In this document: positions 15,042 to 31,612 of the stretch, in pieces
Numbering within the stretch: position 1 is the stretch's first letter
Layout: each line of letters begins with the position of its first letter
From: a virus
Length of the DNA: 31,612 bases
Direction: 5' to 3' (one strand)
IMG/VR virus record: IMGVR_UViG_3300017757_000067
Span: 1-31,612 of that record
Made by a program: the position numbers and the translations under genes
Notes under the pieces: model-generated
The model's input: only the letters and a program-made list of their open reading frames with translations
What the model was told of the DNA's origin: nothing
Databases searched by the model: none

Positions 15042-15043
15042 AG

Positions 15044-15781: not shown

Positions 15782-15783
15782 AG

Positions 15784-15951: not shown

Positions 15952-15965
15952 ATTAGTGTATTTTA

Positions 15966-15984
15966 TACTATATTATAGTTACAT
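15966..15984 (-). promoter_or_regulatory. Promoter-like element, copy A (upstream of the tail block)
   Basis: The plus-strand sequence TACTATATTATAGTTACAT reads ATGTAACTATAATATAGTA on the coding strand, ending 14 nt before the ATG of the 55-aa gene. It includes TATAAT and lies just downstream of the terminator at 16011-16041, where a new promoter would be needed. It differs at one position from the element at 3923-3941. It also has inverted ACTATA/TATAGT arms, but copy B breaks that symmetry, so a promoter box is favoured over an operator. Confidence 0.55.
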
Positions 15985-16010
15985 AATAAAGTGGAAGGTT
16001 AGCCCCTAAA

Positions 16011-16041
16011 TAAAAATAGCCACCCGTAATGAGTGGCTATT
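16011..16041 (-). terminator. Rho-independent terminator after the 275-aa gene
   Basis: On the coding strand the stem AATAGCCACTC pairs with GGGTGGCTATT around a 5-nt loop (ATTAC): 11 pairs including one G-T, followed by a run of five T (16012-16016 on the plus strand, overlapping the stem end). It begins about 18 nt after the stop at 16060. It separates the head region from the tail block, which begins with its own promoter-like element. Confidence 0.85.
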
Positions 16042-16059
16042 AATACTAGTTAAAGATTA

Positions 16060-16887: not shown

Positions 16888-16902
16888 AATATAATATAAT
16901 AT
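16888..16902 (-). repeat. (ATATT)3 leader directly before the 275-aa gene
   Basis: Three tandem AATAT units (plus strand) abut the start codon of the 275-aa gene, which has no Shine-Dalgarno. An unstructured A/T leader like this suits initiation in Bacteroidota-type hosts. It is the third case of a pentanucleotide repeat immediately before a start codon in this window. Confidence 0.6.
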
Positions 16903-16907
16903 AAATT

Positions 16908-16944
16908 AAAAAAAATATAAGGGCGATACTAGACCGCCCTTATA
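16908..16944 (-). terminator. Strong rho-independent terminator after the major capsid gene
   Basis: The coding strand forms a perfect 10-bp stem, TATAAGGGCG with CGCCCTTATA, around a 9-nt loop (16926-16934), followed at once by eight T (16908-16915 on the plus strand). It lies 12 nt after the capsid stop codon. A terminator here would keep capsid mRNA abundant and separate from the genes below it. Confidence 0.9.
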
Positions 16945-16955
16945 AATAAATAGTC

Positions 16956-18494
16956 TTACTTCATCATCATGAAATTGTTAGCACCTTGTACTATCAAACA
17001 TCTTTCAGTTAAGAAGTGTAACTGCATTGCATCTAACGCTGATGTAGCAGCTCCAACAGAACCAGTAGTCCAAGTTTTCATCTTTCTATTGTCTGTTTGA
17101 GAAGCTCTATATCTTACGTGTAAGAATGGTCTCTTTAAGTTTTTACCCATAGTTTGGTCATAAACTGTAGAAACACCAGCAGGTATCATAACTCCTCTAA
17201 TAGCTTCAGCAGCATTAGCGTCGTTAATAGAACCTCTAGTCGCTTTATCATTTAAGTATCTAAAGTCAGATTTGTAGAAGTCATAAGAACCTCTTCTAAA
17301 TCCTGAGAAACCTAAATTTAACGCCATATCTTCGTCATTGTCGAATACCCCGTAAGAAGTACCTCCAGCTCCGTAAGAATTCATTGAAGCCAACATGTCA
17401 TCCATTGCTAAACTAGTAGCTCTGTTTACAAACATCATGTATTCCTCAATAGCTCCTTGCTTATCGAATTCAGCTAATATAAGATCGAATTCAGCTAAGT
17501 CAGTAGCAGCGTTAACGCCAGAAATTCCAGAAGTAATATTACCTCTTTTGTTAATAGCTTGGAATAAACCTTCAGTTCCAAAGTTACCAGCTGTAGCAGC
17601 AGTTGTATGAGGTAAGTTATTACTACCATCAAGTAATGAATCTGTAGTACCTAATTCAGATTCTAACATTGCCATTTCTAAATAATCATTAAATCTAGCT
17701 CTTGTGTCAGACTCAGCCTTTAAGTACCATAGGTATCCAGATTGACCTTGCTCAGAAGCAACTTCTACCCAACCAATTCTACCCGTATCAGAACCTGATA
17801 CTTCGTAGTAATCTTTCATGATAATTGGTTTGTTAGTAAAAGTTTTAAACTGAGGCTCGTTAGCTCTTCTACTATCAGTTTGAGTAGTAGCAGCACCACC
17901 AGTCATGTAAGAAACTCCTTTTGAGAATTCAGAACCGTAAACTAGTATAGTGCAAGAACTACCATCATTACTATCAGCGATAAGACCAGAACCAGAGCCA
18001 GCGTCGTAAGGAGCTACATCAATAGTTGCTGTAGCAGCAGCAGCTGTAACAACTAAACATTTGTGTACTCCAGCAGAGTTAGCTATAATAACTGTATCAT
18101 TAACTCTAATACCGTGATTAGTAGTTACTGCGTTACCATCGATATCTGTTTCAATAGTTACCATTGTAGTTACGCCTGTACCAGCATCCGCGCCGTCGTT
18201 AGTGTCTCCAGTAACGATCTTTCCTTTGTATGATAAATGAAGTCTACCTTGTTCAGACCAAATAACTTGATCAGAAGACATAGACTCTTCAGCCCCAACT
18301 TTAGATAAGAAACCTGAAATAGTTCTCGGTCCGAAAACCTCAGCTTCTTTCTCCATAAGTTCAGGCAAGTATTGTTGACCCCAGTTTGCACTAGCAGCGC
18401 CAGTACTTGTGAAGTCGATATAGTTTGTTGTAAGTGCAACTTGCTGTGAAGCAGGTACACTATTTAACAAACCACCGGGATTTGAAATTGCCAT
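16956..18494 (-). CDS. Major capsid protein
   Basis: This 512-residue protein is assigned as the major capsid protein from its place after portal and scaffold-like genes, its size, and its own strong terminator. The N-terminal arm (about 1-60) leads into ELMEKEAEVFGPRTISGFLS, typical of HK97-fold N-arm/E-loop regions. A beta-rich insertion (80-190) with Gly, Ala and Thr could be a surface domain. The later part (GRIGWVEVASEQGQSGYLWYLKAESDTRARFNDYLEMAML) and the C-terminal segment (LKRPFLHVRYRASQTDNRKM) look like the P- and A-domain core. It resembles capsid proteins of crAss-like and marine podoviruses as I remember them. Its leader is A/T-only (AATTTATAATT pattern). Confidence 0.85.
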   Translation of the reverse strand: MAISNPGGLLNSVPASQQVALTTNYIDFTSTGAASANWGQQYLPELMEKEAEVFGPRTISGFLSKVGAEESMSSDQVIWSEQGRLHLSYKGKIVTGDTNDGADAGTGVTTMVTIETDIDGNAVTTNHGIRVNDTVIIANSAGVHKCLVVTAAAATATIDVAPYDAGSGSGLIADSNDGSSCTILVYGSEFSKGVSYMTGGAATTQTDSRRANEPQFKTFTNKPIIMKDYYEVSGSDTGRIGWVEVASEQGQSGYLWYLKAESDTRARFNDYLEMAMLESELGTTDSLLDGSNNLPHTTAATAGNFGTEGLFQAINKRGNITSGISGVNAATDLAEFDLILAEFDKQGAIEEYMMFVNRATSLAMDDMLASMNSYGAGGTSYGVFDNDEDMALNLGFSGFRRGSYDFYKSDFRYLNDKATRGSINDANAAEAIRGVMIPAGVSTVYDQTMGKNLKRPFLHVRYRASQTDNRKMKTWTTGSVGAATSALDAMQLHFLTERCLIVQGANNFMMMK

Positions 18495-18511
18495 AATTAT
18501 AAATTTTTAAA

Positions 18512-19693
18512 TTAATTTTTCTTTTTATTACTCTTTATTCTAAAAGATCTATTTTTTATATCAGCAGCAGATTGACCTAAAACTTTATACTTAACACCAC
18601 CAACGTTTGTTTCACTGTGAGTTTTTCTAGGTTCTAAATTAATATTTTTATCTTTAGCAACTCTATCTTTGATTGCATCAGCTTTACCTTGCTCATAAAA
18701 ATGTTTAGCAACCGCATCAGCATTCATAGCTGTGAACAAAGATCTATGATAACCTTCAGCATCTTCAATAGTTGATTCGTCATCACCAACAAACTTGTCA
18801 ATGAAATTATTTAAATCGCTTTGAGTTTCTTTTACTTTGTCCACGTCTTTAACGTTAAACCTATATTTTTTATCTCCGACATTATATTCAAAACCTTTGA
18901 AATTTTGTCCAAAGAAACTATTGGTTTTATTTAAAAACGTTCTTTGACTTGCACTAGATCTTTCTTGTTGATTTTCTAGATCTTCGTTATACTTATGATA
19001 GAAATTAATAGCATCTTGTTGTTCTTGGGTCAACTTTGACCCTGCTTTAATCTCTTCATAATACTTAGACTTTTGCCCGTCTAAATAGGCTTTAGCCTCG
19101 GCAACTTGCTCTTTAAGGGCTATTTTCTTTTTACGTATAGTTTTCTCATCATCTACCTCTTCATCAATACTAAACTTATCTTCTAATAAGAAGTTTCTTT
19201 CTTCAGCTGATAAATGAGATTTAGTAGTTCTGTAGTATTCGTCTAAAACATCTGAGTCGTCCATGTTAGAAGTATCTCTATTTAAATTTACATAATCTTC
19301 TAAATCACCACCAGTTTCTTCCATAAACTCTACTAGTTTCTGTATATTCTCCGGTAGCGGTTCTCCAGTAATCTCAGACTCAGCGACAGCTTCTTCAACA
19401 GCATCTTGAACATCTTCAACTTCCTGTTGAACTTGCTCTTCTTCCGTAACCTCTTGTATTACGGGTTGCTCTTCTGATCCTTGCTCTACTTGTTCTTCTA
19501 CGTTTTCTTGTTCTTCAACAACTTCTTCTTCAACTGCTTTTGGCTCAGCGTCTAAATTAACTTTAAAAACGCTTTCGTCTTCTGCACTATCAAACATAGT
19601 GTTGTCTATTACTTCTTCAACCTCTTGTTCTATAGGTTGTTCGTTTTGTTCTTCAGTTATTTCTTCAATAACTTCTTTGTTTTCTTCTGTCAT
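18512..19693 (-). CDS. Scaffolding-like acidic protein
   Basis: This 393-residue protein has an extremely acidic Glu/Gln/Val-rich first 110 residues (repeats of EEV and QEV). A helical charged middle (about 150-250) follows, with KKKIALKEQVAEAKAYLDGQ, and the C-terminus is basic (SFRIKSNKKKN). It sits between portal and capsid, the usual place of a scaffold. Acidic helical body plus basic capsid-binding tail is the classic scaffold arrangement. No protease motif is seen. It ends 17 nt before the capsid gene and starts 34 nt after the portal stop, behind an A/T-rich leader. An alternative is an internal or minor head protein. Confidence 0.7.
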   Translation of the reverse strand: MTEENKEVIEEITEEQNEQPIEQEVEEVIDNTMFDSAEDESVFKVNLDAEPKAVEEEVVEEQENVEEQVEQGSEEQPVIQEVTEEEQVQQEVEDVQDAVEEAVAESEITGEPLPENIQKLVEFMEETGGDLEDYVNLNRDTSNMDDSDVLDEYYRTTKSHLSAEERNFLLEDKFSIDEEVDDEKTIRKKKIALKEQVAEAKAYLDGQKSKYYEEIKAGSKLTQEQQDAINFYHKYNEDLENQQERSSASQRTFLNKTNSFFGQNFKGFEYNVGDKKYRFNVKDVDKVKETQSDLNNFIDKFVGDDESTIEDAEGYHRSLFTAMNADAVAKHFYEQGKADAIKDRVAKDKNINLEPRKTHSETNVGGVKYKVLGQSAADIKNRSFRIKSNKKKN

Positions 19694-19727
19694 AATAAAA
19701 TTTTATAAAATATTAAAAATTAGGAGA

Positions 19728-22106
19728 TTATATATTAGCGTCTCCCGTTATAGTATCATTACCTGATGATTCAAACTTTTTAAGTGAATCACCCCCAGTT
19801 CTTTGGTCTATCATTTCTTTTTGATGCATTGCTTGCATATTAACTCTTTGGTCTCTTCTATCTTCTCTACTGTTCTCCATTTGACTATTAGTCTGTTGCT
19901 TTAATACTTCCATTTGAGAATTCAATTGAAACTCATAAGCCATTAATTGCTTTTTAGCTTCAACTTCAGCTTGTAAGTACTGAGCTTTAGTTTGACTTTT
20001 TATTTGTTCTAGCTGTGCGTCAGCCTGCATCTTCGCTTGATTCTTTTGCATTTCAGCTTGTGCCGCCGCTTGAGAAGCTTGAGCATTAGCCTGAGATTGT
20101 GCTTGCATATTTTGTTGTTGCATCTTCTGATCTCTTTCTTGTTTCTTTTTTCTTTTTACTTTTAATAGTTGATTCGCAAGTTTTACGTTTCTTATATTAC
20201 GTAAGTCAATAGCATCATCTAAATCAATACCGCCTTGCTGTATAGATACTTGTATATTATTTTCTAGCATTTGCTTTTCCTCTTCATCTGGCATTAGTTC
20301 TATAAATATACCAAAATCATAAAGGTGTAGCTCAGACATTTCTTTTAATGTTGCAACATTGTGCGCACCTAAGGCTCTTATAAAAGCATCTTTAGTTGGT
20401 GAGTACTCTATTATATCTGCTATACGTAAAGACAAACACTCCGCTACCTCAGCTGTTATAAATAACATTGATTGCAATATATGTCTTGTCGCTGTATTAG
20501 AATTAGCGGCTGCCATTTTTTGAACACCAACCAAAGCATTACGATCAGGTGTACTAGCGTCTCTTGCTTCATTTAACCCCGTTACATCTCTTATCATTTG
20601 TAAGTAATAGTTATAAGTAGATATTAAACTTTGTAACTTACCACTATTAACACCATTACTTATTTGTTGTATAGGTATTTTACCAGGATTCATATCACCT
20701 TCAGATGTAAAACTCCTACCTATAACACTACCAGTTTGGAAGAACATGTTTAAAGCTTCTTGCGGATTATAGTTTGTTCCATTACCCAAATCTATTTCAG
20801 CCAAACCATCAGCATCTAAATAAACACCGTCTGGCACCATACGAGCCATAACTTGTTGTAGCTTTAAGTGAGTTAGTTGTATCATATCTGCAAAGCTAGT
20901 TATTCTACCTACTAAACTTTCTATTCTACCTTCATACATTCTAGGCGCTACAATTTGATAATTCATTTTAACTCTACTAAAATCAGAGTCAGATCTCATC
21001 ATGTTATCACACATTTGCCAAGAAAGTATTTTGTCAGCACCGACAACATAAACACCTTCATATAAAGTCTCAATAACTCTTTCTAATTTATGAAACTCGC
21101 CATTCATACTTTCTATAGGTGGATTAAATGAATCGTCTTTTTCTATTACCTTTTCAGCTCCAGTTCCCATCTTCTTTAACTTATAAACATTATTCATGTG
21201 TGTTTTATAGTTAAAGTACAAAACTTGAATTTTATTTTTATCATAGTTACTTACGTAGTCTACTGGGTTTTGCCTTTTATCTGTTATCTCTTTTATTTCT
21301 TCTTCAGATAATTTAGGAAATTGTTTAACTAATTCATTAATAGGTATTTCTTTTACTTCACCAACGTAATATATATCTTCAAAATAAGGAGAGTCCGTGT
21401 GTGAATATATTAAATTAGCTGGATCAACATATTCAGCTTTAGCGCCACTACTATAATCAAAAGTAGTTTTAGTTGCTCCAATACCTAAAACAGTTAAATC
21501 ATATAAACATCTTCTTCTAACTAAATCATAATCACTTCCTTCTAATAAAACATTTAATGCTTGCTCCTCAGCTAACTCAACAGCTTGTTTGTAATCTAAC
21601 TGCATGTGTAACTTTAGCTCCTCTTCTGAATCAGGTAATTTTTCAGGATCGTTTTCTTTCATATCTATATCATACTGTTGTTGTACTATAGCATCAAAGT
21701 TCTTAGCCCTCATGTCTCTAAGAAGAGACTCCATGTATTCAGTTCTCTTACTAACACCATATTCATCTTGTGAATAACAATTTATTTGGTAACTTCTTTG
21801 AGCCATACCATTTACAACAATGTCAACAAACTTAGGTATAATAGGTACAGGTTTCCAATCAAGATTTAAATAAGATAAATCACCATTAATAGATAATTCA
21901 TTTTTATATTTTTGTATAGGTTGTTCTCCTCTAGCATACAATCTTAATTTATGAAAATTATTTTTGTAATCATTAAATTTATGTGTAGCGCCTGAGAACC
22001 ACTCGTGTCTTATTGCTCTTGCAATTTTTAAACCGTAATCTTCTTTAAGTTTTTCTAAATCGCTAACAGCTTGTGATGGAAAATGTATTGAATGTTGTGG
22101 GTTCAT
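19728..22106 (-). CDS. Portal protein
   Basis: This 792-residue protein is the head-vertex ring through which DNA is packaged. The N-terminal half contains SYLNLDWKPVPIIPKFVDIV and VNGMAQRSY (about 78-105), followed by long helices with LLEGSDYDLVRRRCLYDLTV, which resemble crAss-like portals. The stem/wing region extends to about 640. The last 145 residues are an unusually long Gln/Ala/Met-rich helix, probably the barrel or an extended internal coiled coil. Its ATG overlaps the TerL stop by 4 nt (ATGA), so translation is coupled to TerL, as is usual for packaging genes. Size is large compared with T7-type portals but normal for the crAss-like group. Confidence 0.85.
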   Translation of the reverse strand: MNPQHSIHFPSQAVSDLEKLKEDYGLKIARAIRHEWFSGATHKFNDYKNNFHKLRLYARGEQPIQKYKNELSINGDLSYLNLDWKPVPIIPKFVDIVVNGMAQRSYQINCYSQDEYGVSKRTEYMESLLRDMRAKNFDAIVQQQYDIDMKENDPEKLPDSEEELKLHMQLDYKQAVELAEEQALNVLLEGSDYDLVRRRCLYDLTVLGIGATKTTFDYSSGAKAEYVDPANLIYSHTDSPYFEDIYYVGEVKEIPINELVKQFPKLSEEEIKEITDKRQNPVDYVSNYDKNKIQVLYFNYKTHMNNVYKLKKMGTGAEKVIEKDDSFNPPIESMNGEFHKLERVIETLYEGVYVVGADKILSWQMCDNMMRSDSDFSRVKMNYQIVAPRMYEGRIESLVGRITSFADMIQLTHLKLQQVMARMVPDGVYLDADGLAEIDLGNGTNYNPQEALNMFFQTGSVIGRSFTSEGDMNPGKIPIQQISNGVNSGKLQSLISTYNYYLQMIRDVTGLNEARDASTPDRNALVGVQKMAAANSNTATRHILQSMLFITAEVAECLSLRIADIIEYSPTKDAFIRALGAHNVATLKEMSELHLYDFGIFIELMPDEEEKQMLENNIQVSIQQGGIDLDDAIDLRNIRNVKLANQLLKVKRKKKQERDQKMQQQNMQAQSQANAQASQAAAQAEMQKNQAKMQADAQLEQIKSQTKAQYLQAEVEAKKQLMAYEFQLNSQMEVLKQQTNSQMENSREDRRDQRVNMQAMHQKEMIDQRTGGDSLKKFESSGNDTITGDANI

Positions 22107-24340
22107 AATTTACTTTTAATTATCTTAGATGAAAATCCTTTATTATTATATTTTAATATTCTTAAGTTTAATGGTTCTTTTTTTACTTTAGGATTTGGTC
22201 TATATAAATGTCTGTTGCAAGCCATGATAGCTAAGCCAGAACTTATTGAAGCATCATGCTTTGTTCTTTTGTTTATATTAAATCTAGACCAATCGTTTAA
22301 AGTGTCGTTAAAATACATTGTACCATAAGTGCCATCATTTAATAATCCAACGTGGTCATTGATATACATCTCAATAGCGGCAGCGTGAGCCTGTTTTATA
22401 TCTTCACTAGAATTAGGCATTCCACCAACTTCTTTTTCTGTAACAGATAGTTTATTCCAAATCTTATCTGGTCTATTCATACTGAATCCTCTATATCCTC
22501 TTCTTCTTAAATAATATAATAATCTTGGTTTATTATTCTCAGCAAGTATTGGCATGCCGTAAAATACTAGTGCCATTAAAACATCCTCAAAAAATATTTC
22601 AGCTGTTTGTGGTCTTGCTATATACTCAAGGAAAAAAGTATTTGCTGGAGCATCTTCCATTGAAAACTTTGTTAATCCATGCAAAGCACCTTTTGAACCT
22701 CGTTTATCTACCGTTCCAGATATATCATATGAGTCACATCCAAACGCCCCTATGTGTTCATTACCTGGATATCTTACGCCATTTTTATTTATAACGTTAT
22801 TTTGTAATTTTATTCCTGGTACCCAACTAACATTAAATCTACCGTTAGGGTCTGGGTTAAATGTTACTTGAGTATCTTTAACACCATTAGTCCATTGAAA
22901 GTTACCAGGCGTTATTACTGAAGTATTTCTATTACCTTCGTTATAGTCTATTTGTTCGTATATTTTTACTAAGTTAAATAAACTATTTCTTGTCTCATCT
23001 CTAAACGCGTGTTCTTCAGTTCTTGGAAACTGACGATAAAATTCATTTAAAGCATCTTGATCGTCTTTTAGTCCATCAGCTTCATTCTCCCAGTGCTCTA
23101 TAACACCTTGGTCTATTTCTACGCCGTGTGGATCAAACGTTTCTTTTTCAGGAATATTAAATACGGGTTGTCCATATTCATCAATAAATCCTTCATAGTT
23201 CCATTCCATAGGGATAAACAAAGAATATAATCCTGACCTAGTTTGTCCATTACGGTTTCTTTTTGTAACATCTGAATTATTATATAAGTTTTTAAAATTG
23301 TCCCCTCCTTTATCTAATGCGTTACTAGTACTACCCATCATACATTTACCAACTACCCTACTACCTAGCCTTAAACAAGTTTTTGTAACTCTCCAATTAT
23401 TTTTTATATTATCAGGTCTTTCCCATTTACCACTCTCATCATGCACTAATAGATTTAATTTTTCACCATCATAACTATTATCACCTGTATTTTTCCAGTC
23501 TATAGTTGTATCTAATCCCTGTATATCATCTATCTCTTCTCTTTCACGTATCTTTTTACGAGTAAACTTTTTAGCCGGTACTCTATAAGCGAGTTCAGAC
23601 TTTGGTCGGTCCATACCGTCTTGTATTGGCTTAAAGAAAAACGGGTAGTTAATACTAATTGGTACTACTTTATCTGTAAACATTTTCTTTGCATCAGCAC
23701 CTGATTTAGATAATATACCAAATCTACTATCACTAGCTAGTGTGGCTTGATTAACAGTTTCAGCTGAACTCATAAATGAAAAACCAGAACGTCTATTTTT
23801 TAAGTAACACATTCCGTAACTTCTGTTATCTGATTTACAAGCTTCCCAAAATATAAAGAACAATCTATTTGCCTCTCTATAATCTGGAGCGCCGACATCA
23901 ATCTTACTCCATTGTAAGTACATATAATGTGTACCTGTTATATAGGTTGGTTTACCATTATTCATAAACCAGAAACCTTCTTCTCTTCTTTTAAACTCTT
24001 CGTCTATATATGCGTAGTTATTTTGTTTAAAATCGTCAGGGTATTCTTGCCAATCAAATACAGTTTTAATTCTTTTGAAATTAGAATTAACTGAAAACTG
24101 TTTCCACTTTTGTTCTTCTTTTATTTTACTACAACTATATATTTCTTTGGGCTGTTTAGGTAAGGCTATTTGAAAACCCTGTATTTCAATTATATCACCT
24201 ATCATTCCTGTTTTGGATATACAAACTATATCAGCTTCTTTATTATAACCGTATTTCCACTTTTTAGATTTATTAAGTCTTTTAACAGTGTTTAACTTTA
24301 TAGGTTTTACTATCCTATATAACTTTTGCTTGTAACTCAT
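22103..24340 (-). CDS. terL: Terminase large subunit
   Basis: This 745-residue ATPase/nuclease powers DNA packaging. The ATPase half has a Walker A-like LKNRRSGFSF (180-189), a Walker B with catalytic acid LNLLVHDESG (295-304; D301, E302) and a coupling motif GKCMMGSTSN (331-340). The nuclease half (RNase H-like) shows AFGCDSYD (532-539; D536 likely metal ligand), EIFFEDVL (581-588) and a final acid in KHDASISSGLAIM (694-706; D696). The N-terminal lead (about 1-120) is longer than in T7-type enzymes, as in crAss-like TerL proteins. It overlaps TerS-like and portal genes by 4 nt (ATGA) on each side. All motifs are present and no frameshift is seen. Confidence 0.95.
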   Translation of the reverse strand: MSYKQKLYRIVKPIKLNTVKRLNKSKKWKYGYNKEADIVCISKTGMIGDIIEIQGFQIALPKQPKEIYSCSKIKEEQKWKQFSVNSNFKRIKTVFDWQEYPDDFKQNNYAYIDEEFKRREEGFWFMNNGKPTYITGTHYMYLQWSKIDVGAPDYREANRLFFIFWEACKSDNRSYGMCYLKNRRSGFSFMSSAETVNQATLASDSRFGILSKSGADAKKMFTDKVVPISINYPFFFKPIQDGMDRPKSELAYRVPAKKFTRKKIREREEIDDIQGLDTTIDWKNTGDNSYDGEKLNLLVHDESGKWERPDNIKNNWRVTKTCLRLGSRVVGKCMMGSTSNALDKGGDNFKNLYNNSDVTKRNRNGQTRSGLYSLFIPMEWNYEGFIDEYGQPVFNIPEKETFDPHGVEIDQGVIEHWENEADGLKDDQDALNEFYRQFPRTEEHAFRDETRNSLFNLVKIYEQIDYNEGNRNTSVITPGNFQWTNGVKDTQVTFNPDPNGRFNVSWVPGIKLQNNVINKNGVRYPGNEHIGAFGCDSYDISGTVDKRGSKGALHGLTKFSMEDAPANTFFLEYIARPQTAEIFFEDVLMALVFYGMPILAENNKPRLLYYLRRRGYRGFSMNRPDKIWNKLSVTEKEVGGMPNSSEDIKQAHAAAIEMYINDHVGLLNDGTYGTMYFNDTLNDWSRFNINKRTKHDASISSGLAIMACNRHLYRPNPKVKKEPLNLRILKYNNKGFSSKIIKSKL

Positions 24341-24609
24341 TTTGATCTACCTTCTGCAAAACCTTTAAACTTAACTTCTTTCTTATCCTCAATTTTACCT
24401 TCAAGCATATTCTCTTCTTCGTTTATACGATTAAGTATTTCAAAGGCGTCAAATATAGCTAACTTTTTTGTAGCAGCGGCGTTCTTTAATCTATCAGCTG
24501 ATATATCATCATCTGAATCTACAATAGCTTCTTTAGCTACTTTAATTAATTCTTCAACCGCCTTATGCCCAGCTTGGATTATATTCTTTTTCGTTTCCTT
24601 GATATTCAT
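24337..24609 (-). CDS. Small terminase-like protein (position and shape)
   Basis: This 90-residue helical protein starts MNIKETKKNIIQAGHKAVEE, followed by KNAAATKKLAIFDAFEILNR and ending KGFAEGRSK. It lies immediately upstream of TerL and overlaps it by 4 nt (ATGA). Its first 47 nt overlap the end of the 193-aa gene, and no later Met can serve as start without removing most of the protein. A small helical protein in this place is usually TerS, but there is no clear helix-turn-helix and TerS proteins are usually longer. It may be a reduced TerS or a TerL accessory factor. Confidence 0.7.
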   Translation of the reverse strand: MNIKETKKNIIQAGHKAVEELIKVAKEAIVDSDDDISADRLKNAAATKKLAIFDAFEILNRINEEENMLEGKIEDKKEVKFKGFAEGRSK

Positions 24610-25144
24610 ATTTAATTGTAATAAATTTATTCATAACCCTATAAAGCCTTTGATTATCTATAACAAACTCAAATTCACTGCCAGGTTGAAAACCAACAAG
24701 ATCTTGCTTGTTATATTTACCGTCAGTATATTTTATAATACCTATTAAAGGCCTTTCTTTTTCTAAGCTAAAGTTATTAGAAGACTCCAATGGTTTAACA
24801 AAACAATAACCAGGTGTTGATACCCATTTATTATTTTGTTTGTATAAAAAAACTTGGTCTAAAGAAATAAAATACTTATCTTCTTTCCAGTATGATCTAC
24901 TATTTTTCTCTCTACCCTTCATATCATACCATCTTCTAAAAACATTATGATGAACTATTATCTCATCACCCACGTTAATGGGTGATTGAAATAATAATGG
25001 AGTAGCGATTACTTTTGCTTTTCTATTAACAAACTGATGATTAGATATCTCTGTATTAAGTATTAATTCTTTGTCATCAAATTGTTTAACATTATCATAA
25101 CGCTCACCAATAGGAGAGACAATAAAATCTTTGTAAGCATTCAT
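24563..25144 (-). CDS. Tandem GroES-like (co-chaperonin fold) protein, inferred
   Basis: This 193-residue protein is beta-rich. Residues 36-103 read as a GroES-like barrel: a hydrophobic strand KAKVIATPLL, then INVGDEIIVHHNVFRRW (matching the VGDxVxF step of GroES), and the closing strands KYFISLDQVFLY. Residues 112-178 repeat the pattern: GYCFVKPL, then GIIKYTD, GFQPGSEFEFVIDNQRLYRV and MNKFITIKY. GroES proteins open with a similar V-V-K-P strand and close with Y-x-V...I strands. This suggests two co-chaperonin-like domains in one chain, separate from the ordinary GroES at 27957-28214. The assignment rests on pattern only. The start shares one nucleotide (TAATG) with the 74-aa gene. Confidence 0.5.
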   Translation of the reverse strand: MNAYKDFIVSPIGERYDNVKQFDDKELILNTEISNHQFVNRKAKVIATPLLFQSPINVGDEIIVHHNVFRRWYDMKGREKNSRSYWKEDKYFISLDQVFLYKQNNKWVSTPGYCFVKPLESSNNFSLEKERPLIGIIKYTDGKYNKQDLVGFQPGSEFEFVIDNQRLYRVMNKFITIKYEYQGNEKEYNPSWA

Positions 25145-25368
25145 TAATATTCTAAGTTATACTCAATTGATATAGCCATATTCTTATTAAAATCTTTCCA
25201 AGGTATAACAACCTTGTCTTTTTTAATGTAAATAGAATATTTGTCTTCTTCTTCTACTATATCACAGATTTTATGTCCGCCATAAACTTCTTGGTTTACA
25301 GCGTAATGCATGGAATCGTTTTTATAATCTTTACCTATAGTAATTTTTCTGATGATATTATTTTTCAT
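25144..25368 (-). CDS. 74-aa conserved-looking small protein
   Basis: This short beta-rich protein contains ITIGKDYKNDSMHYAVNQEV and ends IPWKDFNKNMAISIEYNLEY. I recall near-relatives in marine phage operons at the same place, without known function. It overlaps the 93-aa gene by 11 nt and hands over to the 193-aa gene by TAATG, so the three form a coupled translation unit. A small adaptor or a partner of the 193-aa protein is possible. Confidence 0.7.
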   Translation of the reverse strand: MKNNIIRKITIGKDYKNDSMHYAVNQEVYGGHKICDIVEEEDKYSIYIKKDKVVIPWKDFNKNMAISIEYNLEY

Positions 25369-25639
25369 CTTTCTTTTCTTTAGGCCAGTTGATAGTTCCG
25401 TCGTCTAAATTAACGTCATACGTGCCATATTCTTTAACTAGCATTTGTTGTAATGTTTGAATACCTTTTTGGGCTTCATCTAAGTTATGTAGTAAGTGAT
25501 GCTTTTGCGCTTCAATTTTCCCTACATTAAACTGTAAAGCGTTTATAGTATTAACAACTTTCTGTAAATCAGCTAAATGTTTATCTGATATTTTATCAAC
25601 CTTAGGCTTAAGGTCAATAACTTTTTCTTTTTTTCCCAT
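25358..25639 (-). CDS. Small coiled-coil protein
   Basis: This 93-residue protein begins with a Lys-rich head, followed by an amphipathic helix LADLQKVVNTINALQFNVGK (23-42) that continues through IEAQKHHLLHNLDEAQKGIQ to about 75. It ends in a short strand YGTYDVNLDDGTINWP and a charged tail. Heptad-like hydrophobic spacing suggests a dimeric or trimeric coiled coil. It has an A/T pentamer leader and is the first gene of the coupled set with the 74-aa and 193-aa genes. Function unknown. Confidence 0.75.
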   Translation of the reverse strand: MGKKEKVIDLKPKVDKISDKHLADLQKVVNTINALQFNVGKIEAQKHHLLHNLDEAQKGIQTLQQMLVKEYGTYDVNLDDGTINWPKEKKDEK

Positions 25640-25661
25640 AATTTAATTTAATTTAATTTAT
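25640..25661 (-). repeat. (TTAAA)n leader before the coiled-coil gene
   Basis: On the plus strand, three TTTAA units (25642-25656) continue as TTTAT, directly before the start codon at 25639. No Shine-Dalgarno is present. The same pentamer is repeated before groEL. Confidence 0.7.
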
Positions 25662-25665
25662 TTTA

Positions 25666-26253
25666 TTATTGTGCGTAAAAATCTACAACGATATTTCTAA
25701 CAAAGAATATCGCATCTGATGATGGCTTGTCACCGGCGCTAGTAAAGTGTATTACTAAATCTTGGTAAGCGTTTTGACCAATAGTTCCACTAGCTCCAGG
25801 TTGAAACAAAACAACAACATCTTGATCTATAGATAATGAAACGTCTGCTCCAGTAACGTTATCTAAAGAGGGATTAGCTTGTGTACCAGCTCTAAACCTA
25901 GTATTAACATCATCAGTTCCACCCCAACTTGAACCATCACCTCCTGAGCCATTCTTTAAGTATATCTCCATACTTACCTCAAAATGGTCAGTTGTGTTTC
26001 TAGTCCAACCAGTTGTTATGTTTCTAACGAATATTCCAGAAGGGCCAGATGTTTGGTTAGTATCATAAGCTACCTTTAGCCAAGTGCTATCTCCTGAGCC
26101 ATCTGGTAAATTTTGAGCACCAGTTAACGTCATAGTTCCCTGCTCATTCCAAGGTTCCCAACTATCAACACCAGATGTGAAATCACTAGTGTAAGTACCT
26201 AATGGTAAACTAGCCGCCGAACTTCTTACTATTGAATTACCTAATCCTAACAT
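25666..26253 (-). CDS. Jelly-roll/carbohydrate-binding-like virion surface protein (inferred)
   Basis: This 195-residue protein is Ser/Thr/Gly/Asp-rich and strand-rich. The early motif TSGVDSWEPWNEQGTMTLTG and later HFEVSMEIYL, then VVLFQPG and the final VDFYAQ follow the order of a beta-sandwich of the carbohydrate-binding-module type. There is no signal peptide. It joins the upstream 118-aa gene through TAATG. A head decoration or minor fibre that touches host or environmental polysaccharide is likely. A purely structural role is the main alternative. Confidence 0.55.
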   Translation of the reverse strand: MLGLGNSIVRSSAASLPLGTYTSDFTSGVDSWEPWNEQGTMTLTGAQNLPDGSGDSTWLKVAYDTNQTSGPSGIFVRNITTGWTRNTTDHFEVSMEIYLKNGSGGDGSSWGGTDDVNTRFRAGTQANPSLDNVTGADVSLSIDQDVVVLFQPGASGTIGQNAYQDLVIHFTSAGDKPSSDAIFFVRNIVVDFYAQ

Positions 26254-26609
26254 TAGTCTCCTATATAAGCTACTATACTACCTGAATTAACATCTACCTC
26301 ATTCCATCTTCCGTATATTGTTACACCTTTTGGAAATGAAACTGAATCTACTGTTTTACCACCAGATCCACCATCTGTTGTTTCTGAGCCATCATCTAAA
26401 TCATTTGCAACAGTCGTGCTAGTATTTATATATTTAGCGGGCTCTGTTGAAAGTAATCCAGTTGTTGAATCAAATACTGTATCAGCTAACATTGTTATAG
26501 CAACAAATACTTTACCTGTTGGAGGTTTTATAGCATCACTACTAGCGGTAGTGTAAGCGCTACCTAATTGTCCAAAGCCGTAAGAGACTTCTGTTGAATT
26601 TATTCCCAT
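26253..26609 (-). CDS. Small beta-rich virion-like protein
   Basis: This 118-residue protein begins MGINSTEVSYGFGQLGSAYT and ends FPKGVTIYGRWNEVDVNSGS plus a short tail. It is Thr/Ser/Gly/Asp-rich, without Cys, and predicted beta. Comparable small proteins next to phage holins in marine genomes are usually called structural, but I know no function. It starts 2 nt after the holin-like stop and shares TAATG with the following 195-aa gene, so it probably acts together with that protein on the virion surface. Confidence 0.65.
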   Translation of the reverse strand: MGINSTEVSYGFGQLGSAYTTASSDAIKPPTGKVFVAITMLADTVFDSTTGLLSTEPAKYINTSTTVANDLDDGSETTDGGSGGKTVDSVSFPKGVTIYGRWNEVDVNSGSIVAYIGD

Positions 26610-26611
26610 AA

Positions 26612-27037
26612 TTATTTATTGTTATTTTGTTGTTCATTTTTCTTTGACGATCCTCCAAAGAAGAAATCGACTACCGTGTTTACTTTAGCACTCATAGCGC
26701 CAAATATAGTTGATATAAAGCTTATTTCAAATTCCCCTAAGTCTATATCACCCATCATAAAGAATCTAAACATTACAAAGCTTAAAGCAAAGTATGCTAC
26801 CGTGAATAACGTCGCAAGTATCTTTTGAATAATTGCATCGTCTTTATACATATCACGAGCGCTCTTTCTGTCTTCGACTTCTTTAGCGAAAGCTTCAGTT
26901 TCGGCTTCGAGTAATAATCTTCTGAGAGCAAGCTTAGCTTCATCTCTTTCTTTGTCTGTCGTAATAACTTTGTCAAGTATTCCTTCCGCATTATCTACTA
27001 CTTTGCCGAATAAGCCAGTTACAAATTTTCCTATCAT
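26612..27037 (-). CDS. Holin-like membrane protein
   Basis: This 141-residue protein has an amphipathic N-terminal helix (about 1-25, IGKFVTGLFGKVVDNAEGIL) and a long charged coiled coil (27-68, EAKLALRRLLLEAETEAFAK). One clear membrane span follows at about 72-93 (ILATLFTVAYFALSFVMFRF), and a second hydrophobic segment lies at about 104-128. A hydrophilic, Asn-rich tail ends the chain. This resembles 3TM-type phage and gene-transfer-agent holins, which release virions by forming inner-membrane lesions. No lysin gene lies beside it in the window. The ATG overlaps the winged-helix stop by 4 nt (ATGA). A virion membrane protein is the alternative. Confidence 0.6.
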   Translation of the reverse strand: MIGKFVTGLFGKVVDNAEGILDKVITTDKERDEAKLALRRLLLEAETEAFAKEVEDRKSARDMYKDDAIIQKILATLFTVAYFALSFVMFRFFMMGDIDLGEFEISFISTIFGAMSAKVNTVVDFFFGGSSKKNEQQNNNK

Positions 27038-27474
27038 CGTTCGTTGTCTTTTATCATATCATCGATAGACTTATTCATTACCTTATCGGTGTATGATTGA
27101 TTATTAAAAAACACACTCTTTTCCGAAGTAGGTATATCCTCCTCTCCTAATAATATTCGGTATATCCTACTAATTAAGTGTGAGCATTTAAAAGAGGTTT
27201 TGAATACAGAGTATTTGATGGTTGTTCTGTTTCTGTGTCTCCACGTTTCTATCCAACCATTCCTCTTTAGTTTCTCCCAACGGTTCTTATCCCAACTCAT
27301 GGTATATGTTCCGTCAATAAATTCTTGACGCGTGAATCTTCCTTTGCAATCTAAGTAAATAAGAAGTTCTAAATCTGCGTCAGTCAACCCGTAAGTTTTA
27401 CAGGCCCATTTTCTAACGAGCCTGTAATACTTAAGGATTTGTAAATCACGTAAATCGTGACTTGTTAATCGCAT
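27034..27474 (-). CDS. Winged-helix (MarR-like) DNA-binding protein, inferred
   Basis: The start chosen is the ATG at 27474 (MRLTSHDL), which shares one nucleotide with the upstream stop (TAATG). The longer frame from 27504 would overlap the 122-aa gene by 31 nt. The 146-residue protein has helical DLRDLQILKYYRLVRKWACK, then a turn into TDADLELLIYLDCKGRFTRQ, and a recognition-like helix/wing region (DKNRWEKLKRNGWIETWRHRNRTT). That order resembles MarR-type winged helices. A conserved-looking basic patch (FKCSHLISRIYRILLGEED) follows. It could repress a late promoter or bind DNA inside the head. No enzymatic motif is seen. Confidence 0.6.
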   Translation of the reverse strand: MRLTSHDLRDLQILKYYRLVRKWACKTYGLTDADLELLIYLDCKGRFTRQEFIDGTYTMSWDKNRWEKLKRNGWIETWRHRNRTTIKYSVFKTSFKCSHLISRIYRILLGEEDIPTSEKSVFFNNQSYTDKVMNKSIDDMIKDNER

Positions 27475-27842
27475 TATGCAGCTAGTGTAACAGCAGAGTT
27501 CCAAACAGTAACATTACCATCTGTAACACCTGTGTCAGCAGCACCATCTGCAACAACTAACCAACCGTCAGAATATTGAGGGCCAGTAGAGTATGCAGCT
27601 TGTACAAAAGCTTTCATAAATTCTCTAGAAGTAGCACCAGTGTGAGTAACAACAACTTTGTCGTTAAGATCAGTAGTTAATACATCGTTACCTATTTTCA
27701 TAGGCATGAAGTAAAAAGTTGTTTCAGCAGCACCAGTAGCATCAGTACCTTTTAAACCTTCTAAAGGATATACTACAGCTTCGCCAGTAGAGTCACCACC
27801 ATCAGCAGCGCCATCTGTTCCAAAAAAAAGAAATTTTCTCAT
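27474..27842 (-). CDS. 122-aa unknown, beta-rich, acidic
   Basis: This protein starts MRKFLFFGTDGAADGGDSTG and is rich in Gly, Ala, Asp and Thr. It has a central FYFMPMKIGNDVLTTDLNDK and ends GNVTVWNSAVTLAA. There is no signal peptide or membrane span. The Gly/Asp-rich stretch could bind a metal but shows no exact loop. It stands as the first gene after the only larger gap in this part (27843-27956) and overlaps the winged-helix gene by one nucleotide. I do not recognise its family. A small virion or decoration protein is a guess. Confidence 0.65.
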   Translation of the reverse strand: MRKFLFFGTDGAADGGDSTGEAVVYPLEGLKGTDATGAAETTFYFMPMKIGNDVLTTDLNDKVVVTHTGATSREFMKAFVQAAYSTGPQYSDGWLVVADGAADTGVTDGNVTVWNSAVTLAA

Positions 27843-27956
27843 ATTGTATTTTTTAATGATTAATAATTAATTTATGATTTTAAGTTTATTGTTTTTGGTT
27901 TATAGTTTACGTATAATCTACTTTAATAGTAATTACACGTTTTTAGCGAATAGTAA
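27843..27956. other. Intergenic gap between groES and the 122-aa gene, with a direct repeat
   Basis: This is one of the longer non-coding stretches (114 bp), nearly pure A/T near the start codon at 27842. Two copies of AATAGTAATT lie 24 bp apart (27925-27934 and 27949-27958, the second overlapping the groES stop). The segment 27919-27938 shares part of the 19-bp promoter-like element but with several differences. No hairpin plus T-tract is evident, so termination after groES is not supported. Confidence 0.45.
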
Positions 27957-28214
27957 TTATTCTACTATAACTATATCCCTAGCACGTATCACCCTGTACA
28001 TACAATCATTATAACTAATATCATGACCAGCAATAGCATCATAGTATATACTGTCCCCAGTTTTAACCACTTCCACCATGTTGCCGACAGATATAATATT
28101 AGCTTTTTTATATCTATTTGTTTCATCTGTTTTATCTGTTAATATAAGGCCACCAACTTTTTTCGGCCCCTCTTTTATTATATCAACTACTACGTAATCG
28201 TTAATTGCTTGCAT
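27957..28214 (-). CDS. groES: Co-chaperonin GroES (phage-encoded)
   Basis: This 85-residue protein is a GroES/Cpn10 homologue that caps a GroEL ring during protein folding. The opening AINDYVVVDIIKEGPKKVGG corresponds to the first strand and the mobile loop, whose LIL triplet (GGLILTDKTDE, 21-31) matches the IVL-type contact to GroEL. NIISVGNMVEVVKTGDSIYY is the barrel core, and CMYRVIRARDIVIVE closes it. The roof beta-hairpin is short, as in many phage co-chaperonins. It starts inside the end of groEL (14-nt overlap), so it is translated from the same message. This order, groEL then groES, is the reverse of bacterial operons. Confidence 0.9.
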   Translation of the reverse strand: MQAINDYVVVDIIKEGPKKVGGLILTDKTDETNRYKKANIISVGNMVEVVKTGDSIYYDAIAGHDISYNDCMYRVIRARDIVIVE

Positions 28215-29769
28215 TTTCTATTCTCATATTTGATATTACACAATCCGCTGACATAATGGTTAATGCTACACTTACAGCGTTTTTAAGAGCAGACTTAGTT
28301 ACAAGCACTGGATCAATAATACCAGACTCAACCATATTAACTTCTTTACTAGTTACTACATCTACACCTATACCTTTAATTGGCCTTGGCGCTACCTGCA
28401 TTAACCCAGCGTTATCAAGTATAGTTTTAAATGGTGACGATAGCGCATTAAGTAGTACTTTACCACATTTGTTAGCTTCTATTTCTTGACTAGCATTTAA
28501 TAAAGCTACACCACCGCCTGGCACTATACCTTCTTGTAGTGCTGCTTTAGTAGCATATATAGCATCTTCAACTCTATCTTTCTTTTCTTTTAATTCAACT
28601 TTAGAATTAGCACCTACCCTTATTATACCTACACTACCTGATAATGCTGCTAATCTATCTTCTAGTTTCTTTTTAATAAAACCGTTTTGCTCTTTAGCTA
28701 AATGTTTATTTAAATCATCTATCCTGTTTTCAATATCATCGTTCATACCTTCTAAGGTTAGTACAGTATTTTTATCATCAGTTACTGAAAACTCAGCTTC
28801 ACCTAAATGCTCAGGTTTCATAAGATCTAAATCATCGCCAAGCTCTTCATTAAATACTGTAGCTCCAGTAAGTATAGCTAAATCTTCTGTAGCATCTTTT
28901 TTAGTAGGACCAAAACCAGGTAAATCAATTATATTAACTTTAATATTACCTTTTACTTTATTCATAAGTAAAGCGGCTTTAACTTGTTGAGCTATTGGCG
29001 CTACAATAAGTAATGCTTTGTTATGTTTAATAATATACTCTAATACGTTTTGTATTTTTCTCATATTAGGTATTTCAGAAGAACATACCATAACCATAGG
29101 ATTATCTAGTTCACATGTTTGTTTATCTGTATTAGTTACAAAATGTGGTGACGTCAAACCACAATCTACTTTAACACCGTCAACTACGTCAACGTAAGTA
29201 TCCTCTGATTCGCTTTCCTCCATAAGAACAACACCGTTTTTACCAACAGTACTATAAGCCTTAGCTATAATACCACCTAGTTCTTTATCGTTGTTACAAG
29301 ATATAGCACTAACAGACTTTAACATGTCGCCTTCGACGTCAATAGATTTATTATTTAAATAACTAATAACGTCATCTAGCGTTTTGTTAACTCCATCTTT
29401 AATTTCTCTGATTGTAAGACCATCTGCGATTGCAGTGTCTATCTGTTGAATTAATGCTTCAGCTAAAACTGTAGCAGTTGTTGTACCATCACCAGCATCT
29501 TTAACTGTATTTCTGGCAGCTTCTTTTATGAGTGTAGCGCCCATATTTTCAACCGGGTCACGTAAGACTACGCTTTCTGCAACGGTTACTCCGTCTTTTG
29601 TTATGACCGGTTTGCCACGCTCATCTTCGTACACAACGCATTTTCCTGATGCACCTAATGTGGACTTGACCGCTTGGGCTAACTTATTAACTCCGGTGAT
29701 GATTCTATTTTTAGCGTCATCACCAAAGTCTAAGTTTTTTACTAACTCACTTGGTAAGTTGTATTCCAT
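28201..29769 (-). CDS. groEL: Chaperonin GroEL (phage-encoded)
   Basis: This 522-residue chaperonin makes the double-ring folding chamber with GroES. All three ATP-site landmarks are present: ITKDGVTVAE (D59, E. coli D52 equivalent), DGTTTAT (94-100, D94) and RVEDA (399-403, D402). The equatorial domain is followed by a full apical domain (about 200-380), and GGGVAL occurs at 418-423. It lacks the C-terminal Gly-Gly-Met tail of bacterial GroEL, ending in SNMRIENASN. Full length and intact motifs indicate function. The leader contains four TTTAA units (plus strand) and no Shine-Dalgarno. Likely clients are phage capsid or tail proteins that the host chaperonin folds poorly, which is inference. 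Confidence 0.95.
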   Translation of the reverse strand: MEYNLPSELVKNLDFGDDAKNRIITGVNKLAQAVKSTLGASGKCVVYEDERGKPVITKDGVTVAESVVLRDPVENMGATLIKEAARNTVKDAGDGTTTATVLAEALIQQIDTAIADGLTIREIKDGVNKTLDDVISYLNNKSIDVEGDMLKSVSAISCNNDKELGGIIAKAYSTVGKNGVVLMEESESEDTYVDVVDGVKVDCGLTSPHFVTNTDKQTCELDNPMVMVCSSEIPNMRKIQNVLEYIIKHNKALLIVAPIAQQVKAALLMNKVKGNIKVNIIDLPGFGPTKKDATEDLAILTGATVFNEELGDDLDLMKPEHLGEAEFSVTDDKNTVLTLEGMNDDIENRIDDLNKHLAKEQNGFIKKKLEDRLAALSGSVGIIRVGANSKVELKEKKDRVEDAIYATKAALQEGIVPGGGVALLNASQEIEANKCGKVLLNALSSPFKTILDNAGLMQVAPRPIKGIGVDVVTSKEVNMVESGIIDPVLVTKSALKNAVSVALTIMSADCVISNMRIENASN

Positions 29770-29773
29770 AATA

Positions 29774-29793
29774 TTTAATTTAATTTAATTTAA
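29774..29793 (-). repeat. (TTTAA)4 leader before groEL
   Basis: Four exact TTTAA units on the plus strand (TTAAA-type on the coding strand) end 4 bp before the groEL ATG. The stretch cannot form a stable structure and has no Shine-Dalgarno. It may act as an unstructured translation-enhancing leader or contain part of a promoter. Confidence 0.7.
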
Positions 29794-29812
29794 CTTGTGT
29801 AGATTTAAAGTT

Positions 29813-30391
29813 CTACTTCTTAAGTCTAGCAGCTTTTTCTTCTCTAGACTCCGTATTATATTTTTTACCTTTATAAGTAAAATAACCTTTTTCATCTCCG
29901 TAATGAGCAACACCAGCAGCTTTGTTTTTATCTCTTGCTGCTCTATAAGCTTCACTAAATGAACCGTACTCTTTTGGTTCTTCTTTCTTAGGCTCAACTG
30001 GTACCGGATCAGAAGTTCTTTTACCAGTTCCTGGAACTTTATTCCCTTGCTCGTCATATACTTTAGGTCTAGTAACTCTATGTTGCATGCCTAATGTTTG
30101 ACCTCCTCTTCTATCCACTAAATCAGCTTTCTTATCTTTACCAGCCTCTAAGTTTTCAGCCATGTCTTCTTTGACGCCTGCTCTGATTTCTTTAGATTTA
30201 GCTCTATTTTCTAGTCTTTGTAGTCTTCTTTCGCTACCACCTTTTTGTCTAAGGTTTTCAGCTTTGTTTCTAAGTTTGTCAGCTTTTCGTCTTTTACGAG
30301 CTGCTCTTCTTTGGTTACCCTTGGTTACAGGTACTTGTCCTTGCGAACCAGTACCTTCACCAAATGTCATTCCGTCTAATTTAAATGCCAT
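29813..30391 (-). CDS. Basic, DNA-binding-like protein with C-terminal KGKKY module
   Basis: This 192-residue protein has a Gly/Gln lead, then a very basic helix (about 26-80: RRAARKRRKADKLRNKAENL). A Pro/Lys/Glu-rich linker follows, then a C-terminal module (140-180) with FSEAYRAARDKNKAAGVAHY and FTYKGKKYNTES. I recall this F-S-E-A-x-R-x-A-R...GKxY ending in other phage proteins. The composition fits nucleic-acid binding, such as packaged-DNA neutralisation or capsid cargo. It lies 3 bp after the H1-like gene and precedes groEL. Function is not known. Confidence 0.65.
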   Translation of the reverse strand: MAFKLDGMTFGEGTGSQGQVPVTKGNQRRAARKRRKADKLRNKAENLRQKGGSERRLQRLENRAKSKEIRAGVKEDMAENLEAGKDKKADLVDRRGGQTLGMQHRVTRPKVYDEQGNKVPGTGKRTSDPVPVEPKKEEPKEYGSFSEAYRAARDKNKAAGVAHYGDEKGYFTYKGKKYNTESREEKAARLKK

Positions 30392-30394
30392 AAT

Positions 30395-31600
30395 TTATCC
30401 TGCTCTTCTACCTCCTAACGCTCTTCCTAAACCTACCGCTCTTCTTCTTCTTGTTTTAGTTTTAGTTCTTCCCGTTAAAAGATTTGTTTTAGTTTTAGTT
30501 ACTGTGTTACCTGTTTTTGTGGTAACTTTTAATTTCCTAAGGTTTCCTCCTTTTCCTTTCATCTTAACCTTCTTATCTAGTCCGCCACCAGCACCGTAGA
30601 ATCTCTCCTTTGCAACGCCTCTACCTCTTTTAATCTTTCTTTCTCTCGACTTACCAGTTTCAAGATTCTTAGCTTGATCAATTTGCTTTGTTCCACCTAT
30701 ACTTCTTCTTCTAACTAATCTAGCACTTTCACCTATGTACTTTCCGCTACCAGCATCTTGTACTCTTTTTCTAGTTACAGTATCTCTACCTCTAGTTCTT
30801 GTTGATTGAGCAACTCTAACTTTTCTACCTTTTCCAGAACCACCGCCTTTAGAACCACCTCCTTTAGAGCCACCTCCTTTAGAGCCTCCGCCTCCGGAAC
30901 CTCCACCAGATTTTCCACCACTTGTTTCGGTAGGAACTTGAGATCCTCCTTTAGGGGCTAACATATAACCTGTAGCACCCCAACCTAAAGCACTTAATGC
31001 TTTACTTTTAAAAGATCTTCCTTTTGGCTTTGCTATTGGCGCACCTTTTGGAGTAGTCTTTGGAGTAGTTTTACCTTTAGGAGTTGTCTTACCTTTAGGA
31101 GTTACTTTACCTTTAGGAGTTGCTTTAGGTTTAACTTTAGGTGTTACAGGTTTAGGTTTAACTTTTGTTATTTTACTAGCTGAAGCTTTAGGTCCTTTTG
31201 GTAAAGCTTTAGTAGCCTTGCTACTTTTACCTAGATTTTTAAGATACTTAACGCCTTTACCTCCGTATCTGATAGCGCCACTAATACCTCTAGCTGCTAA
31301 TCCCCAAGCTTTTTGTGGAGATTCCCCAGCCATATCATATGGTGCCATGTCTTGTGGCGATCCTTGGCCTTTCATTTTACCAGCAGACCCGACCATTCTT
31401 CCAGCTTTTGTCGATGCTCTGGATAGCCCTGATGCGCTAGCTGCGGCTCTGCCCGCTTTTCTAACAGACACACTCGTGCCTTTACCTTTACCTTTTAATC
31501 CTTTAGCTGCTAATCCTCCTAGCTTTGCTCCACCTCTTATTGCAGCACCTACCAATGGTGTTGGACTTTTAGATTTCTCTCCATACATCTTACCACCCAT
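30395..31600 (-). CDS. Histone H1-like, Lys/Gly-rich basic protein
   Basis: This protein of up to 401 residues is extremely basic and low-complexity. It opens with a Gly/Lys-rich N-terminus. The centre (about 140-190) has consecutive TPKGK(V/T) and KPKxTPKG repeats, as in linker-histone tails. A hydrophobic patch (about 205-216) follows, then GGGSKGGG repeats (about 235-255) and a C-terminus rich in Arg/Lys/Thr (KTKTNLLTGRTKTKTRRRRA). Its likely role is binding or condensing DNA, or packing as internal cargo. The start is uncertain: the frame is open for the four codons (GGT GGA GTA AAG) left before the window edge, and the GGAG could instead be a ribosome site. A true start further upstream is possible. 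Confidence 0.7.
   Translation of the reverse strand: MGGKMYGEKSKSPTPLVGAAIRGGAKLGGLAAKGLKGKGKGTSVSVRKAGRAAASASGLSRASTKAGRMVGSAGKMKGQGSPQDMAPYDMAGESPQKAWGLAARGISGAIRYGGKGVKYLKNLGKSSKATKALPKGPKASASKITKVKPKPVTPKVKPKATPKGKVTPKGKTTPKGKTTPKTTPKGAPIAKPKGRSFKSKALSALGWGATGYMLAPKGGSQVPTETSGGKSGGGSGGGGSKGGGSKGGGSKGGGSGKGRKVRVAQSTRTRGRDTVTRKRVQDAGSGKYIGESARLVRRRSIGGTKQIDQAKNLETGKSRERKIKRGRGVAKERFYGAGGGLDKKVKMKGKGGNLRKLKVTTKTGNTVTKTKTNLLTGRTKTKTRRRRAVGLGRALGGRRAG
30840..30884 (-). repeat. 15-bp tandem repeat encoding SKGGG units
   Basis: Three successive 15-bp units similar to CCACCTCCTTTAGAG (plus strand) encode GGGSK-type blocks in the H1-like protein, and the pattern decays into the next 30 bp. It probably arose by slippage within the coding region. 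Confidence 0.75.
31073..31126 (-). repeat. 18-bp tandem repeat encoding TPKGKx units
   Basis: Three 18-bp units similar to ACCTTTAGGAGTTGTCTT (plus strand) encode TPKGKT-type hexapeptides in the H1-like protein. Flanking diverged copies extend the pattern on both sides. Confidence 0.75.
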
Positions 31601-31612
31601 CTTTACTCCACC

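Follow-up and report, generated by a model that had tools for sequence, protein, structure and literature searches.

Phages that encode both GroEL and GroES are already known, and the phage collection used here holds 268 records with a GroEL match. GroEL was reported in marine Bacteroidota phages in 2017 (PMC5332604), and the passages of that paper considered here describe a "group 2" of uncultured phi38:1 relatives that, like the window analysed below, carry GroEL (Nishimura et al. 2017). Another paper, in the passages considered (PMC9611531), cites Marine et al. 2017 as linking the order of the subunit genes to viral GroEL phylogeny. No mention of a tandem Cpn10, or of changed groove or inter-ring residues, was found in these passages of either paper (PMC5332604; PMC9611531). 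The window, meaning the whole stretch of 31,612 nt of the IMG/VR virus record IMGVR_UViG_3300017757_000067, contains groEL followed by an overlapping groES, and a second co-chaperonin-like gene lies upstream of its terL. We read the pair, with a probability of about 0.8, as a working group I chaperonin that has long been inherited, large subunit first, in podovirus-type Bacteroidota phages and provides a dedicated folding chamber for phage proteins.

The closest described systems are those of Elemovirus (Flavobacterium phage vB_FspP_elemoA_7-9A, NC_055852) and MW202828, a metagenomic phage genome from a spring metagenome. Like the window, both have groEL before groES, the two genes overlapping by 1 nt and 44 nt, a related terL, a tandem Cpn10-like gene upstream of terL, and a GroEL that falls on the same side of the GroEL tree. 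Their GroELs are only about 37-38% identical to that of the window, the groove residues differ between the clades, and, unlike in the window, the Elemovirus pair and terL are on opposite strands. Since groEL precedes groES in the public annotation of these two genomes, and given the link made by Marine et al. 2017 as cited, the arrangement of the pair is not new in kind. What goes beyond the known outline is the clade-wide rewriting of GroEL and the predicted tandem double-Cpn10 gene, and these are the parts worth following. In Callevirus (Cellulophaga phages phi38:1, phi40:1 and Calle), GroEL, a single Cpn10 and the tandem gene upstream of terL are present as in the window, but the order is groES, a small gene and groEL, and in the larger tree these phages are placed alongside bacteria and the phages of ES-EL order. 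Pseudomonas phage EL also encodes a GroEL-like chaperonin (gp146), which is very distant (25.8% identity over 79%) and, unlike the window GroEL, is placed apart from group I in the literature; no GroES was found within ~2 kb of it. The GroEL/GroES pair of E. coli shares with the window the Cpn60 and Cpn10 families, the catalytic aspartates and the mobile loop. It has the opposite gene order, and the window differs from it by changed groove and inter-ring residues and by the lack of the GGM tail.

The large subunit, groEL (Cpn60; 28201-29769, minus strand), encodes a 522-aa protein placed in group I by its family matches and the trees. It matches Pfam Cpn60_TCP1 (PF00118) over residues 30-514 of 522 (E = 9.2e-55; 186.7 bits against a cut-off of 34.3) and PHROG 5725 (E = 9.4e-136). 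The co-chaperonin gene groES (Cpn10; 27957-28214, minus strand) encodes 85 aa and matches Pfam Cpn10 (PF00166) with E = 3e-11 and 43.6 bits (curated cut-off 21.1). Its AF2 model has a pLDDT of 87.6, and the best PDB matches, with TM of ~0.70-0.76, are solved co-chaperonins, those of human mitochondria, Mycobacterium, Thermus and E. coli. Both ORFs are open, with groEL first, and the end of groEL shares 14 nt with the start of groES (ATGCAAGCAATTAA; 28201-28214, minus strand), the groES ATG being located within the groEL stop region. A first-pass annotation, made from the sequence alone, had described a complete pair in this order, with the 14-nt overlap and a groES start inside the groEL stop region, and the ORF coordinates, the Pfam matches and the shared bases bear this out in every detail.

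The same annotation had pointed to an LIL mobile loop in GroES and to three intact ATP-site acids in GroEL, all of which we recovered by alignment. The loop reads GGLIL at residues 21-25 (28140-28154, minus strand), with G22 nearly invariant (33 of 34 alignment rows), and it coincides with a low-pLDDT block of the AF2 model, as expected for a mobile loop. In GroEL, the ATP-site aspartates D59 (29593-29595) and D94 (29488-29490), together with D402 (28564-28566), the residue of ATP hydrolysis, all on the minus strand, align with E. coli D52, D87 and D398, respectively. All three are invariant across the window clade, and GDGTTT is present at the position of the GDGTT motif. Values of dN/dS range from 0.06 to 0.16 for groEL against eight relatives and from 0.09 to 0.19 for groES in the seven of these eight where it was computable, so both genes are under purifying selection. 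From its sequence, the pair looks complete and functional.

Other sites of GroEL were compared between 24 window-clade sequences and 30 bacterial ones, using E. coli numbering. In the clade, L234 is replaced by Q in all 24 sequences, Y203 by H in 22 and L259 by K in 16, and we take this set to be GroES- and client-binding positions in GroEL. At the positions of the hydrophobic groove, the window GroEL itself has Y199L, Y203H, L234Q, L259K, V263L and V264M, with F204 and L237 kept, and the R197-E386 pair is changed in the clade as well. Mutations at the E. coli groove residues replaced here harm E. coli GroEL, which counts against the reading of the pair as a working chaperonin. Since the groove is rewritten in the clade, the lid of the phage GroEL is probably the phage's own GroES, to which the groove would be fitted, and not that of the host. 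A second set of changes lies in a shortened equatorial region (residues 428-460; 28390-28488, minus strand), where the inter-ring sites E434, R452, E461 and V464, presumably the positions joining the two heptameric rings of group I chaperonins, are deleted or changed. E434 is deleted in 24/24 members of the clade, and R452, E461 and V464 are not conserved there. In bacteria these sites are retained or conservatively replaced, apart from E434, which varies there too. The loss or change of ring contacts suggests that this GroEL may act as a single ring, or possibly as a weakly paired one. Neither the window GroEL nor the EL-ES relatives inspected have the GGM tail.

Gene order was scored by HMM searches over all loci gathered. 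The first-pass annotation had proposed to check the order in related phage contigs. In the 80 viral loci nearest to the window GroEL, groEL precedes groES without exception, and the overlap is exactly 14 nt in 70 of them. The other viral scans gave the same order in 78 of 78 new loci (mixed alignment), 13 of 13 (Elemovirus) and 77 of 80 (MW202828), so that it is common to more than 240 viral loci. Being present in all four scans, groEL-first is a trait of the phage clade and not a peculiarity of this contig, and neither the order nor the overlap is due to chance. Bacteria had been said to place groES first, which holds for 73 of the 74 bacterial loci of our sample with a detectable pair. The sole exception, from a Planctomycetia MAG (L096), has groEL before groES with a gap of 333 nt.

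Among the phages, groES comes first in Callevirus, immuto, DAC16 and MW202566 (the last scored by eye), and in further phages no GroES was found nearby. Panino has groEL first too, its groES being left unnamed in its record. In the MW202828 group, other genes often lie between groEL and groES, with gaps of up to ~2 kb, which indicates that tight coupling of the two genes is not needed everywhere. These insertions include gene cassettes in L208 (6672-8523) and other loci of the group, the one in L208 containing class II tRNA-synthetase-like pieces in two ORFs. Two close relatives of the window have an additional small gene separating groEL from groES (L031, 5637-6095; L280, 1892-2320), and that of L031 is 2OG-Fe(II)-oxygenase-like (E = 0.0023, below the Pfam cut-off). 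The overlap is thus dispensable. Promoters around the window pair showed no excess over shuffles (10 found, 10.5 expected), and no Bacteroidota-type -33/-7 motif was found directly upstream of groEL. Four terminator-like sites occur around the pair, two of them being both strands of one palindrome within groEL.

The careful GroEL tree was built from 65 rows and 529 columns, with the long-branch sequences of Dulem 41, phi14:2, MW202566 and phi40:1 left out. The window group (15 rows) forms one clade with a support of 100/99. A 100/99 branch separates the whole set of EL-ES viruses (window group, MW202828 group, Elemovirus and Panino) from all bacteria and the other phages. Gene order needs one change on this tree and the same count on a larger quick tree. 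The GroES tree (83 columns) also needs one change of order; the branching of the viral clades is not resolvable there, and the GroES of Elemovirus falls, with weak support, on the side of the bacteria (95/77, long branches).

With a single change on the tree, and with relatives that tolerate overlaps of 1 to 44 nt, gaps and inserted genes, the reversed order and the overlap could lack functional meaning, being one neutral ancestral rearrangement that was simply inherited and leaves the subunit ratio unaffected. The conservation of exactly 14 nt in most close relatives (70/80) speaks against this, though shared descent alone could explain it, and we hold the neutral explanation to be possible, at a little under even odds.

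Another explanation to be weighed was that a host groESL operon had been captured recently and its order rearranged afterwards, which we consider extremely improbable. Captures do happen, as the GroELs of other phages (DAC16-like, DAC_L406 and Vibrio phages) sit inside bacterial clades of the same tree, and for this reason the trees would have revealed one here. Instead, the window GroEL belongs to a deep separate viral clade. Its best bacterial matches are at ~42% identity and scattered over many phyla, the AU test rejects a grouping of the window-group GroELs with those of Bacteroidota (p-AU 4e-72), and the gene order is shared by the viral loci counted above. Nesting of both proteins within one bacterial genus, which the first-pass annotation had taken as the mark of a recent host capture, was not seen in the GroEL tree, the GroES tree or the AU test. 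The pair is therefore not a recent host capture, and an ancient capture predating the clade is possible or even likely. The annotation had argued against simple capture of a host operon from the reversed order. The absence of a recent capture stands, but it is the phylogeny that shows it and not the order itself, which is clade-wide and is also found in the bacterial L096.

Some further observations were made during these searches. Many of the phage GroELs of the DAC16 scan (L342-L421) fall inside bacterial clades, and 49 of the 80 loci had no GroES found nearby; some of these GroELs (e.g. L406) resemble bacterial captures or mis-called contigs. A contig labelled as a Streptomyces griseus MAG (L111) is probably misbinned, as its GroEL falls among those of Bacteroidota and phages. 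The Panino GroEL, used as query, found no relatives in viral contigs, and window bases 15000-31612 had no match among phage records in megablast.

The clade of the window is marked by terL, the terminase large subunit (745 aa; 22103-24340, minus strand; PHROG 6681, E = 3.9e-171), which is 64% identical to that of MW202828, the nearest, and 46% to that of Elemovirus. The 87 phage records with a related terL all infect Bacteroidota where a host is stated, the hosts including Flavobacterium (Elemovirus), Cellulophaga, Tenacibaculum and Maribacter, and a Bacteroidota host is thus likely for the window phage. The terL, portal and virion proteins match PHROG families, and groEL-groES is on their strand, beside virion genes. 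A 2178-aa protein (7193-13729, minus strand) matches the virion structural protein family PHROG 14478, and its C-terminus weakly resembles, below the cut-off, the C-terminal domain of the crAss-type muzzle (PF25729, E = 0.0053).

In the mechanism that we propose, the 522-aa GroEL would assemble into a ring and form an ATP-driven folding chamber enclosing unfolded phage proteins, and the 85-aa GroES would cap it through the GGLIL loop. Both genes would be carried on one message, where the groES start adjoining the groEL stop may lead to translational coupling. As groEL and groES adjoin virion genes and run in their direction, the chamber most likely serves the folding or assembly of phage proteins made late in infection. 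That the clients are virion proteins which the host chaperonin cannot fold, as the first-pass annotation had suggested, is conjecture. For the GroEL of the related phage phi38:1 (gp054), mass spectrometry gave a signal both from infected cells and from free-virion samples (PMC13288928); this supports expression, and the signal from virions could be a product of co-purification. The pair of Elemovirus, being on the strand opposite terL, indicates that co-expression with virion genes is not general.

The chaperonin could instead serve mainly the takeover of the cell, stabilising replication enzymes or stressed host proteins, and not the folding of virion proteins. The groEL and groES genes are located beside DNA polymerase and exonuclease genes in phi40:1 and immuto, and some phage DNA polymerase neighbourhoods are said to encode GroEL or GroES (PMC11348598). 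In the window, however, the pair adjoins virion genes of the same strand, an argument of position and not of function, and we regard the takeover role as unlikely compared with a chamber for late phage proteins.

The window has a second co-chaperonin-like gene upstream of terL (24563-25144, minus strand), encoding a single chain of 193 aa for which PHROG, AF2 and hhalign results predict two Cpn10-type domains in tandem. The protein matches PHROG 13932, "co-chaperonin GroES" (E = 3e-16), and its AF2 model is all-beta, with a pLDDT of 88.8. The best full-length PDB match of this model in Foldseek is the chloroplast Cpn20 (7ekq_R; E = 8.5e-4, probability 1.00, TM 0.57), and the further leading matches are all co-chaperonins. 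When the halves were compared with GroES profiles by hhalign, probabilities reached 76.5% for the N half and 92.7% for the C half, these being single-comparison values. In Pfam, the window protein has no match and the best of 63 relatives has E = 0.0014, while the C halves of the phi18:3 and phi40:1 tandem relatives exceed the Cpn10 cut-off. Chloroplast Cpn20 also has two Cpn10-like domains in one chain of ~190-200 aa; it is ~12% identical to the phage protein, whose second domain, unlike that of Cpn20, lacks a recognised mobile-loop motif.

We gathered 129 full-length members of the tandem family, and the gene adjoins terL in all 57 loci holding terL. At the mobile-loop position of the first domain, there is an LILN motif (residues 27-30; 25055-25066, minus strand), of which I28 and N30 are at least 90% conserved in 62 sequences. 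In the second domain we could not recognise a mobile loop, only a short loop without a hydrophobic triplet. Public records name the gene co-chaperonin or Cpn10 in several relatives, and no description of the two-domain nature of the phage protein was found in the literature searched. Cellulophaga phage phi18:3 (L435, KC821620) has the tandem gene at record positions 41458-42060 and a single Cpn10 at 31117-31338, with no Cpn60 match anywhere in its genome; in Tenacibaculum phage Gundel, none of GroEL, single Cpn10 and tandem gene was found.

The presence of the tandem gene in phi18:3 without GroEL indicates that its protein is not tied to a phage GroEL, and it may either use the host GroEL or have a role in the head or in packaging. 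We see an even chance that the protein is a packaging or head factor that has retained the fold alone and has no action on GroEL. The invariable position beside terL, the second domain without a recognisable mobile loop and the persistence of the gene in phi18:3 all favour such a factor, against which stand the conserved LIL-type motif at the loop position of the first domain and the leading PDB matches, all of them co-chaperonins. The phi18:3 protein, moreover, could use the host GroEL. Phage T4 gp31 works with host GroEL, and chloroplast Cpn20 forms a mixed lid together with Cpn10. A three-part chaperonin can also be conceived, composed of the altered GroEL, the single-domain GroES and a tandem co-chaperonin made with the packaging genes, where the tandem protein would enter a mixed lid, alongside GroES or in its place, and bring capsid or packaging proteins to the phage GroEL, or to that of the host in phi18:3. 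We offer this only tentatively and think it improbable.

A common explanation of phage chaperonins is that they are genes borrowed from the host, and this lineage shows the opposite. Here descent within phages has lasted long enough for the pair to have a gene order, a lid groove and ring contacts of its own. The phages concerned are marine and uncultured, and their cultured relatives, Elemovirus and Callevirus, make it feasible to knock out the genes and to test for clients. The conserved tandem Cpn10 gene next to terL, which persists even in a phage lacking GroEL, provides a concrete test of a phage-evolved double lid of the Cpn20 type.
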